Below, in pieces: positions 4,301-56,955 of a stretch of DNA of 64,000 nucleotides; position 1 is the first letter of the stretch, and each line of letters begins with the position of its first letter. Below the pieces are notes generated by a model. It worked only from the letters and a program-made list of their open reading frames with translations. It ran no database searches and had not been told where the DNA came from. The stretch covers positions 62,678 to 126,677 of the forward strand of contig PXSK01000021.1 of assembly GCA_003022865.1 (NCBI GenBank). The letters are read 5' to 3'. Both the position numbers and the translations under genes were made by a program. Source of the stretch: Halobacteriales archaeon SW_5_70_135 (GTDB lineage Archaea; Halobacteriota; Halobacteria; Halobacteriales; SW-7-71-33).

Positions 4301-5323
4301 GTGATGAGCGAGGACGAGACGGGAGCGTCGTCCGGGCCGGCCCCACCGGCGGCGTTCGAACGGGCGGGACCGGTGCTGGCCCGGTTCGCTCGGCCACGCT
4401 GTCCCGTCCCGGCGAGACTGGCGGTGCTGGGCGACCCACATCTGTCGACGCGAAGGGTGGGCACCTGGAAGCTGTTTCACCGCACGGAGCGTCGTCTGGC
4501 GGCGGCCGTCGAGGACTGCAACCGCCGCGACGTCGACGCGGCGGTGTTCGTCGGCGACCTGACGGAGAACGGTCACCCGGCGGACTTCCGCCGAGTGCAC
4601 GAGCTGCTCGACCGCCTGGCGGCGCCCGCGCTGGCCGTCCCGGGCAATCACGACGTCCCGGCGGCGGCCGACTCGCACGAGACGCCGCCGGTCGGGGCGT
4701 TCGAGCGCCGTTTCACGCCGGGGGGGCTGCCGTTCCACGCGACCGTCGGGGGCGTCGACGTGGTCGGGCTGAACACCGCCTCGACGCCGGACGGCCGGCT
4801 CTACCACACGCACGACGGCGAGGTCTCACCGGCGGCGCTCGACTGGCTCTCGGACGCGCTCGCGGACGCCGAGACGGTGCTGGTGGTCGGTCATCACAAC
4901 CTCTCGACGGCCGGCGACCCCGACGTGCCGGTCGGCGACTGGCGCTCGTCGTTCCCGCTCCGGGACGCCGACGACCTCCTGGCGACGCTCCGGGAGGGTG
5001 ACGCGCCGCTGTACTGCTCGGGCCACCTGCACGTCCCCGCCGTCGGCCGCCCCGACGGGGCCGTGCGCGAGCTGGTGGTGCCGCCGCTGTGCTCGTTCCC
5101 GCAGGGCTACGCCCTCGTCCGGGTCGGGCCGGCGGGGACGACCGTCCGCCACGTGCCCGTCGCCGACGAGGCGGGCGTCACGGAGGCCTACCTCGCGGCG
5201 CTGCGGGACAAATCAAAGAGCGAGGCGGTCGCGCGGTCGACCGCCGAACGGCTGCGCCGACTCCCGCTGGCGGACGAGCGCGCGCCGACGGTCGGCGCCG
5301 AGCCGACGGCGTCCACCCGGTGA
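4301..5323 (+). CDS. Metallophosphoesterase
   Basis: LGDPHLS, VGDLTENG, VPGNHDVP, GHHNLS, SGHLHVP motifs. Confidence 0.85.
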   Translation: MMSEDETGASSGPAPPAAFERAGPVLARFARPRCPVPARLAVLGDPHLSTRRVGTWKLFHRTERRLAAAVEDCNRRDVDAAVFVGDLTENGHPADFRRVHELLDRLAAPALAVPGNHDVPAAADSHETPPVGAFERRFTPGGLPFHATVGGVDVVGLNTASTPDGRLYHTHDGEVSPAALDWLSDALADAETVLVVGHHNLSTAGDPDVPVGDWRSSFPLRDADDLLATLREGDAPLYCSGHLHVPAVGRPDGAVRELVVPPLCSFPQGYALVRVGPAGTTVRHVPVADEAGVTEAYLAALRDKSKSEAVARSTAERLRRLPLADERAPTVGAEPTASTR

Positions 5324-12015: not shown

Positions 12016-12214
12016 GTGTTCAGATAAGCGCCAGCCGAACCAACGAACGGGTGGGACTGAAAGGGGCCGGTCGCTGCGGGAAGCCCGGCGACGAAAGCAC
12101 CGCAAGCCGACCGAAGGGAGGCTGAGGAGCACAGCGAGACGCGCGACCGCAGCGGCCGGGGGCTTTCTACACCTGATTGACAACGGCGGCTGCTGTGCAT
12201 CCGTATCTGAACAC
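12016..12214. mobile_element. MITE-like unit: 11-bp terminal inverted repeat GTGTTCAGATA/TATCTGAACAC enclosing hairpin element B
   Basis: GTGTTCAGATA at 12016-12026 and its perfect reverse complement at 12204-12214; no obvious target duplication seen. Confidence 0.45.
12053..12167 (+). repeat. Hairpin-arm element, copy B
   Basis: GGGACTGAAAGGGG start; arms 12059-12079 and 12147-12167 pair at 17 WC + 1 G.U positions with a 3x3 GGG/GGG mismatch; core AAGCACCGCA...GAGGAGCACAGCGAG. Confidence 0.85.
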
Positions 12215-23678: not shown

Positions 23679-23780
23679 GCAATCTCTGCGAGCGGCAGCG
23701 GGATAAGCCTGTTTCCCTGGGCCGGCAGTAGTGTTCAGATTAGCACCTGCTGATGGGAACGCTATTGGTGTGGAGAGCCA

Positions 23781-23882
23781 GAAAGCCCCCGACGGCTCGC
23801 CGGCTACGACTCGCTGCGCTCCTCACTGCGTTGCGGTGCTTGGGTCGTCTCGCTCGGCGAGCCGTCCGCCCCTTTCAGTCCC
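23781..23882 (-). repeat. Hairpin-arm element, copy C (minus orientation)
   Basis: Arms 23781-23802 and 23855-23876 pair with the same 3-nt mismatch; minus-strand core AAGCACCGCAACGCAGTGAGGAGCGCAGCGAG. Confidence 0.85.
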
Positions 23883-23905
23883 GCCCCGCCGAAGTTGCCC
23901 AGAGC

Positions 23906-24018
23906 GGGACTGAAAGGGTCCGGCGTACTGCGGGAAGCACGGTGATGCAAGCACCACAGCGAACACAGTGAGCGAGGAGCGCAGCGAGCCGCGCGACCGC
24001 AGCACGCCGGGGGCTTTC
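23906..24018 (+). repeat. Hairpin-arm element, copy D, divergent from copy C
   Basis: Arms 23912-23933 and 23997-24018; core AAGCACCACAGCG...GAGGAGCGCAGCGAG. Confidence 0.85.
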
Positions 24019-24104
24019 TGGCTGTTCAATCCAGTTTAGATTGCCAATTTAAACAGTGTCCGGGCCGGCCGACGGGACTGCGGCGGTCCTCGACGGCCCG
24101 GGCG

Positions 24105-54744: not shown

Positions 54745-55521
54745 ATGGTCGACGTGCTGGCGGACAAGCGGACCGCGACGCGGTTCCGCGTCCTCGTCGA
54801 GATCGCCGAGCGCCAGCCGGCCGTCTCGCAGGGGGAGATCGCCGAGGCGGTCGGCGTCACCAGCCAGGCCGTCAGCGAGTACATCCGCGAACTCGTCGAG
54901 GACGGCTACGTCGAGAAGGAGGGCCGCTCGCGCTACCGGATCACCAAGGAGGGCGTCGACTGGCTGTTCGGCGCGGCCGACGACGCCCGTCGGTACGTCG
55001 AACACGTCACCGAGGACGTGCTCGGCTCCGTCCGCGAGGACGCCGCCGTCGCCGCCGCCTCCGTCTCGGAGGGCGACCGAGTGACGCTGTCGATGCGGGA
55101 GGGACTGCTGCACGCCGCCCCCGGCGACGAGGGGCCGGCGACCGGCGTCGCGACCACCGACGCCGACCGCGGCGAGGTCGTCGGCGTCACGGGCTTCGAG
55201 GGCGTCATCGACTACGACCCCGGCGAGGTGAGCGTCGTTCAGGTGCCCGCCGTCGGCGCCGACGAGGGGTCGGAGTCGGAGCGACTGCGGGCGGCCTGTG
55301 ACGGCGCGGCGGTCGTGACCGCGGCCGGCGTCGAGGCCGTCGTCGCGCTCCGACGGGCCGGCGTCGAGACCGAGACCGTCTTCGGACCCGGGGAAGTGGC
55401 CGCCGACGCCGCCCGTCGCGGCCTCGACGCCGTCGTCGTCACCGCTTCCGACGGCGTCGGCCGGGTCACCGACGCCCTGCGCGACGCCGGCGTCGACCAC
55501 GAGGTCACCAGCCTGGGGTAG
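54745..55521 (+). CDS. Winged-helix/MarR-like transcriptional regulator
   Basis: FRVLVEIAERQPAVSQGEIAEAVGVTSQAVSEYIRELVEDGYVEKEGRSRYRITKEGVDWL. Confidence 0.88.
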   Translation: MVDVLADKRTATRFRVLVEIAERQPAVSQGEIAEAVGVTSQAVSEYIRELVEDGYVEKEGRSRYRITKEGVDWLFGAADDARRYVEHVTEDVLGSVREDAAVAAASVSEGDRVTLSMREGLLHAAPGDEGPATGVATTDADRGEVVGVTGFEGVIDYDPGEVSVVQVPAVGADEGSESERLRAACDGAAVVTAAGVEAVVALRRAGVETETVFGPGEVAADAARRGLDAVVVTASDGVGRVTDALRDAGVDHEVTSLG

Positions 55522-55764: not shown

Positions 55765-55988
55765 GGGACTGAAAGGGGCCGGCCGGGTGCGGGCGCGTCA
55801 CGTTCGAAAATCTAAGATTTTCGAGCCAATCAGGATCTGGAGGATTCTGATGACGTTCGTCAGAGCGGAGCTCTGACGAGCCAACCAGACGCGAAGCGTC
55901 TGGTGACGATGGAAAGCATCGCAGGAGGGAGTCCACGACCGACGAGGAGCGCAGCGAGTGAGATGCCCGCACCCGGTCGGGGGCTTTC
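55765..55988 (+). repeat. Hairpin-arm element, copy E, largest; contains modular hairpin array
   Basis: Arms 55771-55794 and 55965-55988 pair at 20 WC + 1 G.U of 24 with GGG/GGG mismatch; array 55805-55903; core AAGCATCGCA...GAGGAGCGCAGCGAG. Confidence 0.9.
55805..55903. repeat. Tandem hairpin array: H1-AGCCAA-H2-GACGTT-H3-AGCCAA-H4-TGACGATGG
   Basis: H1 CGAAAATC-taa-GATTTTCG; H2 ATCAGGATC-tggag-GATTCTGAT; H3 CGTCAGAGC-gga-GCTCTGACG; H4 CCAGACGC-gaa-GCGTCTGG. Confidence 0.9.
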
Positions 55989-56044
55989 CAAGCCACGGCA
56001 GAGGGATCGAGATCGACAGAGCCGACTGAGAGCAGCCGGACAGC

Positions 56045-56117
56045 GGGAGACTCTTCGAGTCTCCCTGGCAGTCGGGCCGGTGGCCCGACGACAGCGAGAG
56101 GGCAACGCTCTCTGGCT
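56045..56117. repeat. Second hairpin array (H5-TGGCA-H6-GACAGC-H7-TGGCT)
   Basis: H5 GGGAGACTC-ttc-GAGTCTCCC (56045-56065); H6 GTCGGGCC-ggt-GGCCCGAC (56071-56089); weaker H7 GAGAG...CTCTC (56096-56112). Confidence 0.8.
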
Positions 56118-56196
56118 CACGACAGCTCGCTGCCGTAAATGAGGGCTATCCGGGGCCACGCAGGAGGATCGATACCACCGACAGTAACTGATGTCG

Positions 56197-56955
56197 CTAG
56201 CCGAAGTACCGCAGGTCGTCGTCGGTGGGCAGGTCCATCGAGTCGCTCTCCATCTCGCGGATGCGGTTGATGACCTCCTCCATCTCCTCGGCGCGCTCCT
56301 CCAGGTCGGCGAAGTCGGTCGCGACGCCGAGCAGCTCCTCCAGGACGTCGAGCACGGCGCGGGCGCTCTTCGGGTCGACGAGGTAGCCGGAGGTCTCGCC
56401 CATCAGACAGGCGGCACCGAAGCCGCGACGACCGCCCAGCCCCAGGAGGAGACCGGAGACGCCGACGACGCCGCCGGCGGGCTCGTCCTCACGGAATTCG
56501 ACGCCGGCGTCGGCCAGGGCGTCGACGAGCGCCGTCTCGGTGGCGGCGCCGAGCACGTCGTAGTCCTCGATGAACTCGCCGGTGGGCACGCCGCCGAGCG
56601 CGTACACCTCGGTCACGCCGAAGGCGTCGGCGACGTCGAGAAAGGTCTCCGTCAGCCGGTAGTGTCCGCGGTTCGACTGGGCCTGGTTGTCGCCGGTGAG
56701 CACCAGCAGGTCGCTGCCGTCGGTGGGGACGGCGTGGAACTCCACCGCGGCGAGGTCGGCGACGCCGTCCTCGGCGACGCCCACCTGCGGGGGGAGGTGC
56801 TCGGAGTGGACGCGGCGCACCACCTCGCCGTCGAGCTCGTCGAGGAGGTGCTCGGCGGCCAACTTGCCGACGTGACCGACGCCGGGCAGTCCCTCGACGA
56901 GCACCGGCTCGTCGAGGTCGACCTCGGCGACGGTCTCGACCTCGAACTCGTCCAT
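56197..56955 (-). CDS. Proteasome assembly chaperone (PAC2) family protein
   Basis: VLVEGLPGVGHVGKLAAEHLLDEL, TGDNQAQSNRGHYRLTETFLDVADAFG, MGETSGYLVDPKSARAVLD. Confidence 0.93.
   Translation of the reverse strand: MDEFEVETVAEVDLDEPVLVEGLPGVGHVGKLAAEHLLDELDGEVVRRVHSEHLPPQVGVAEDGVADLAAVEFHAVPTDGSDLLVLTGDNQAQSNRGHYRLTETFLDVADAFGVTEVYALGGVPTGEFIEDYDVLGAATETALVDALADAGVEFREDEPAGGVVGVSGLLLGLGGRRGFGAACLMGETSGYLVDPKSARAVLDVLEELLGVATDFADLEERAEEMEEVINRIREMESDSMDLPTDDDLRYFG

Follow-up and report, generated by a model that had tools for sequence, protein, structure and literature searches.

The array and the element that carries it

The window (the whole stretch of DNA analysed here, 64,000 nt) comes from an incomplete haloarchaeal assembly (63%), and the related named genomes belong to the Halobacteriales. 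A forward-strand gene with its end at 55521 and a convergent reverse-strand gene at 56197-56955, the latter PAC2-like as we read its translation, flank an array of short hairpins that is itself enclosed by the two arms of a longer palindromic element (Table 1). An earlier sequence-only reading had described the array as four unrelated hairpins at 55805-55903 with repeated AGCCAA and GACGTT spacers. Hairpins and spacers are present in the sequence, and the fold of the array region stands out from its shuffles (z = -7.3; 0 of 200 shuffles as stable). The array is real, and its true span is 55802-55907, i.e., exactly 2 x 53 nt, made of two tandem class-1 units that meet at a GAC-GTT junction. Each unit has the layout GTT-(hairpin T1)-AGCCA-(hairpin T2)-GAC, so the four hairpins are related in pairs: the first and third are copies of module T1 (GTT...AGC), and the second and fourth are copies of module T2, which in most copies reads xYCAGA...TCTGRx. 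The spacers alternate because a two-hairpin unit is repeated in tandem. They do recur as described, being the unit ends and the unit centre, but are not purely linkers: GTT pairs with AGC (G-C, T.G, T-A), which makes T1 a stem of 11-12 bp with a 3-nt loop.

Table 1 Two-hairpin units, host element parts and unit-less host element copies in the window
Feature	Position	Strand	Sequence or structure	Remarks and basis
Unit-less host element copy	12051-12175	+	empty site CGGC^GACGAAAGCACC	
Unit-less host element copy	23776-23893	-		opposite strand
Unit-less host element copy	23904-24026	+	empty site CGGT^GATGCAAGCACC	
Host element 5' arm	55771-55801	+	31 nt, 77% complementary to 55958-55988	inverted repeat, fold, alignment with unit-less copies
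Class-1 unit 1	55802-55854	+	GTT(CGAAAATC taa GATTTTCG)AGC-CA-(ATCAGGATCT gga GGATTCTGAT)-GAC	53 nt, two hairpins, fold -22.7 kcal/mol
Class-1 unit 2	55855-55907	+	GTT(CGTCAGAGC gga GCTCTGACG)AGC-CA-(ACCAGACGC gaa GCGTCTGGT)-GAC	53 nt, two hairpins, fold -35.3 kcal/mol
Host element core	55908-55957	+	GATGGAAAGCATCGCAGG...GAGGAGCGCAGCGAG	aligns with unit-less copies 12051-12175 and 23904-24026
Host element 3' arm	55958-55988	+		inverted repeat, fold
Class-2 unit	56045-56092	+	(GGGAGACTC ttc GAGTCTCCC)-TGGCA-(GTCGGGCC ggt GGCCCGAC)-GAC	one of 30 class-2 units
Probable second class-2 unit, decayed	56093-56139	+	AGAGGGC aac GCTCTCT, then partly paired TCACGACAG...CTGCCGTAA	

With both units taken out, the host element aligns with all three unit-less copies of the window and with one at a further locus (L007), which bears out the proposal that the array lies within a B/D-type element, with the 5' arm on one side and the core on the other. 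Several such palindromic elements (GGGACTGAAAGGGGC-arm ... GAGGAGCGCAGCGAG ... arm-GGGGGCTTTC) are found in the window and across the order, with arms that vary and still pair. A separate tandem repeat of about 80-160 nt (GAGAGCAGCCGG..GGGGGCTTTCCGGGCC..CAGGAG.ATCGA) follows several host elements (window 55981-56172; positions 1750-2000 of locus L006). Downstream of the class-1 array, at 56045-56139, sit units of a second class with a TGGCA centre; the counterpart of the decayed one at another locus (L005) is better paired.

Spread of the family and length of its arrays

Of 400 Halobacteriales genomes, 111 contain a pattern for T2 (AGCCANYCAGAN{6,14}TCTGRNGAC), with up to 23 occurrences per genome, and none contains its reversed control. 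A stricter pattern has over 100 matches in named genomes, chiefly in Halorubrum and further in Haladaptatus, Halogranum, Halostella, Halonotius, Halocatena, and others. In the window's own genome, a DNA search turned up about 25 dispersed loci sharing fragments in differing combinations. We parsed 161 distinct class-1 units, two of them false on inspection (leaving about 160); their length is mostly 51-57 nt, and chiefly 53 or 55 nt overall. The sister class 2 has the same anatomy (H1-TGGCA-H2-GAC) and numbers 30 examples from the own and other haloarchaeal genomes. Matches in a Gemmatimonadota MAG and in one other genome (G067) were rejected as unpaired chance hits. No unit was found in the viral contigs searched, so viral carriage is not supported.

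Class-1 arrays in the own genome hold one to five units per locus. In archaeon YIM A00010 two loci with the same flanks contain three units (L134) and two units (L158), respectively, from which it follows that array length does change. The idea of growing or exchanging modules therefore stands as to growth, with the whole two-hairpin unit rather than the hairpin as the step. Exchange of single hairpins between arrays is suggested by the second unit of L158, a chimera with arms drawn from different units, and by recurring stem types. A REP-like preference for convergent 3' ends was not seen in the own genome, where by rough ORF calls the flanking genes of most loci are divergent or tandem. At one locus (L093, reverse strand near 4700) a unit directly follows a duplicated tRNA-like 3' end (TTCAAATCCTCTCCTCACC), suggesting the tRNA-end repeat as its landing place.

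Junctions and empty sites

Flank-joined queries recovered empty sites for two units inside genes. For the unit in ligA, matches run across the junction in 12 congeners of the carrier genome (G155) at 74-90% identity, the carrier having 54 nt more; for the unit in uspA, the site is uninterrupted in G070 (94%) and G086 (92%), while G054 carries 53 nt more. No target duplication is evident at either junction. The comparison of empty with filled sites shows a precise gain or loss, the direction of which is not given by it. Among 51 loci that the search pattern had not selected for these bases, C precedes the unit in 49 and G follows it in 49, and purines occupy positions -3 and -2 at most of the 51 junctions, which gives the site RRC^G.

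These copies bear on whether the units are an old component that belongs to the palindromic host element (and to some IS605 elements) and has spread only with it, by recombination or host mobility. Most Halorubrum units do occupy one position of one host element, and these copies may have spread as its passengers; one IS200/IS605 family likewise has the unit at its tnpB end. As an account of all the units, however, passenger spread is quite unlikely: lone units with the same junctions lie at about 18 independent protein-gene sites, two of them with empty sites in congeners, the same genome also has host elements without units, and cases of one unit gained in a gene that has no host element close by are already seen in part.

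Units inside protein genes

Twenty parsed units lie within protein genes, of which 16 (14 independent sites) are in frame and stop-free, all on the sense strand, and four break the frame. The in-frame units encode 17-19 residues, and the peptides are hydrophilic, e.g., VRKSEAPSSQSESTDSDD. According to Pfam, the carriers include an NAD-dependent DNA ligase, in which the insert falls within the HhH region, an acyl-CoA dehydrogenase (middle domain), a P-type ATPase, a carboxyltransferase, AstE/AspA, a macro domain protein, a sulfite-oxidase-like/molybdopterin oxidoreductase, and TnpB. The frame-breaking carriers are, from a reading of their translations, presumably an SDR protein, two UspA proteins, and an ABC transporter.

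The in-frame bias argues that the in-gene copies are probably translated rather than spliced or bypassed. If the unit were a removable insert, taken out or skipped at the level of RNA or ribosome like a mini-intron or a mitochondrial byp, it would need no frame, and the bias counts against this, the 16 units being stop-free multiples of three though the usual unit length is 53 or 55 nt. Even with the four frame-breaking units, and with continuity restored on unit removal at two loci (L034, L121), we regard a removable insert as barely conceivable.

In several families of genes that read as DnaK, a unit lies at the same place in the C-terminal tail (five loci). T1 of these units has turned into GAC-repeat-rich or other sequence and has changed length, and is still paired. 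Some of them hold a stop codon within T1, by which the unit also sets the end of the protein. In one IS200/IS605 family with TnpA and TnpB (L130 and L259-L261), a 51-nt unit lies in frame at the 3' end of tnpB, where it overlaps the expected position of the omega RNA.

Paired stems and the level at which they are kept

Over 79 distinct arm sets, the paired fraction of T1 is 95.6%, against 25-48% with the arms slid by 1-3 and 73% with columns shuffled, and that of T2 97.9%, against 22-44% and 88%, respectively; please note that the parse behind the 95.6% and 97.9% favours paired arms, so that both lean upward. The fairer figure comes from T1, which the search pattern leaves unconstrained: when its 3' arms are swapped between units, only 25% keep 8.5 or more of 10 pairs, compared with 83% before. 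Double changes affect 8 of 11 T1 pairs and 5 of 8 T2 pairs, with up to four pair types per position, in stems of 10-16 bp (T1) and mostly 8-11 bp (T2). About 80 distinct stem sets, drawn from many genomes, thus confirm what was first noticed in the array, constant linkers combined with hairpins that vary yet stay paired. In the Halorubrum copies, the flanking host element is about 15-30% divergent; the stems are almost identical and the loops vary freely. Three-base loops are closed by C-G in 280 of 296 cases, and 60-83% of loops read GNA or TNC, compared with 12.5% expected; GAA/TTC and GGA/TCC loops are both found on the same strand. Hairpins of the d(GCGAAGC) type are unusually stable as DNA.

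A strong fold with covariation could also come from selection on RNA, i.e., from hairpins that act in a transcript through stability, processing, or protein binding, and transcription does read the in-gene units in the sense orientation. If RNA from one strand were under selection, G-U should be favoured. Among the non-Watson-Crick cells, however, G-T (26) and A-C (24) are equally frequent, a weak argument for the intergenic units, which have no assigned transcribed strand, and GNA and TNC loops share a strand, so that neither strand is favoured. The orientation of flanking genes in the own genome is mixed and often divergent, and a search of the window against Rfam 15 gave a tRNA as its sole match and no RNA family at the array or the host element. 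We therefore think a structured RNA unlikely. The equal mismatches point instead to hairpins kept at the DNA level, or to arms copied in a strand-symmetric manner.

The second of these could operate by itself. Template switching or hairpin-templated repair would copy one arm to the other with no selection for structure, and rare recombination would spread the units. Strand-symmetric mismatches and flipping loops agree with such a mutational process, as do the DnaK-tail T1 stems, altered in sequence and length and still paired, and the tandem copies, which show a chimeric hairpin and units lost or gained. It leaves unexplained, however, the RRC^G junctions, the AGCCA linker, the C-GNA-G loops, and the insertion into unrelated genes, and as the whole explanation we give it only a slim chance. 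Arm copying of this kind may act together with mobility of a mini-element, the explanation that we prefer.

A probable mobile mini-element and how it would move

An association with Y1 transposases, one of those proposed from the array alone, is absent at the genome level: Y1 (PF01797) is detected in 73 of 111 genomes with units and in 190 of 289 others (odds ratio 1.0, 400 genomes). None was detected in several nearly complete genomes that bear units, nor in the incomplete own genome. No transposase gene with units on both sides was found, the unit adjoining only the 3' end of tnpB, and by eye the right ends of the IS605 copies at L130 and L259-L261 bear no resemblance to T1 or T2. With neither a Y1 link nor a unit-flanked transposase, these searches name no mobiliser.

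Taking the evidence together, the array is probably a tandem pair of a transposase-less, REP/RPE-like mobile mini-element of 51-57 bp that is present across the Halobacteriales and is moved as folded single-stranded DNA. We infer the mode of movement from the architecture of the units. The unit would travel as single-stranded DNA, with both hairpins recognised by their structure, as are the subterminal hairpins of IS200/IS605 and REP elements, and the mobilising enzyme would be supplied in trans. Since GAC closes the unit and its neighbour opens with G, the target GAC^G is formed again at the unit's own end; a second unit could then land beside the first, and tandem arrays would grow. Copies inside genes would persist mainly when they are stop-free multiples of three. 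The array of the window, lying intergenically between convergent genes, need have no function for the cell.

A bolder formulation, which we put forward tentatively, is that these units form a hitherto undescribed class of archaeal mobile DNA of minimal size (about 54 bp), defined not by a sequence but by the layout GTT-hairpin-AGCCA-hairpin-GAC with C-GNA-G triloops. Its single-stranded DNA would be read by shape, it would make its own target anew, allowing arrays to grow, and it would donate short in-frame peptides to genes including that of DNA ligase. The unit-bearing genera include the culturable Halorubrum, so the mobiliser can be tested for, as can what becomes of the inserted peptides.

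Comparison with known systems

Short palindromic repeats that lack a known transposase, such as CGTC-tagged REPs, Rickettsia RPEs, and Haloquadratum SMRs, are an open puzzle, to which an archaeal case is now added. The haloarchaeal family offers many copies, a clear RRC^G junction, empty sites in congeners, evidence for hairpins at the DNA level, and in-frame copies in conserved genes. No description of the two-hairpin unit was found in the open-access literature.

The closest described elements are the CGTC-tagged REPs, which include Rickettsia RPE-4/RPE-6 and Neisseria dRS3, together with the Rickettsia RPEs; the CGTC-tagged REPs are reported from five bacterial phyla, none of them archaeal (PMC3733652). 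Shared with them are short dispersed stem-loops with a CGTC tag at one end (here GACG after T2), no linked transposase, in-frame copies within genes including repair genes such as DNA ligase, and, in some REP species, dimers in longer palindromes (PMC3733652). The unpaired tag is present here as T2 followed by GAC, which the parse demands; in 49 of 51 loci unselected for G, a G comes next. CGTC-tagged REPs have loops of 4-5 nt, stems of 8-9 bp, a CCA tail after the tagged stem, and head-to-head dimers (PMC3733652); in contrast, the haloarchaeal loops are mostly 3 nt, T1 has 10-16 bp, T2 in the orientation of the tag is followed by TGG, and T1 and T2 form a direct unit repeated in tandem. Given these differences in loop length, tail, and dimer arrangement, and with no archaeal member listed, we do not file the units under CGTC-tagged REPs.

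The nearest haloarchaeal classes are the PATEs and SMR-A of Haloquadratum walsbyi. PATEs have palindromes near both ends that match IS605 ends, and SMR-A elements are about 110 bp long with prominent terminal inverted repeats and are mostly more than 95% conserved (PMC3119063). Like both, the units are haloarchaeal, non-coding, free of target duplication, and nested in other mobile elements; like PATEs, they have near-terminal palindromes without terminal inverted repeats and are too short for a transposase; unlike SMR-A, they measure 51-57 bp and have no terminal inverted repeat (PMC3119063).

With IS200/IS605 ends and with REP/REPIN elements served by RAYT, the units share two subterminal hairpins, the absence of duplication, a fixed short target beside the left end, and a target-like right end. 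They differ in having no genome-level association with Y1, and IS605 copies bear a unit only at the tnpB end. A MITE was considered and rejected, as terminal inverted repeats and target duplication are needed and the units show neither. BIMEs resemble the units in their palindromic modules, conserved linkers, and mosaic intergenic arrays. In BIMEs, however, the palindromes are the conserved part, whereas the stems of the two-hairpin units change by compensation. The family is real and widespread; its kind, the short palindromic mobile repeat, is known, and the variant is new.
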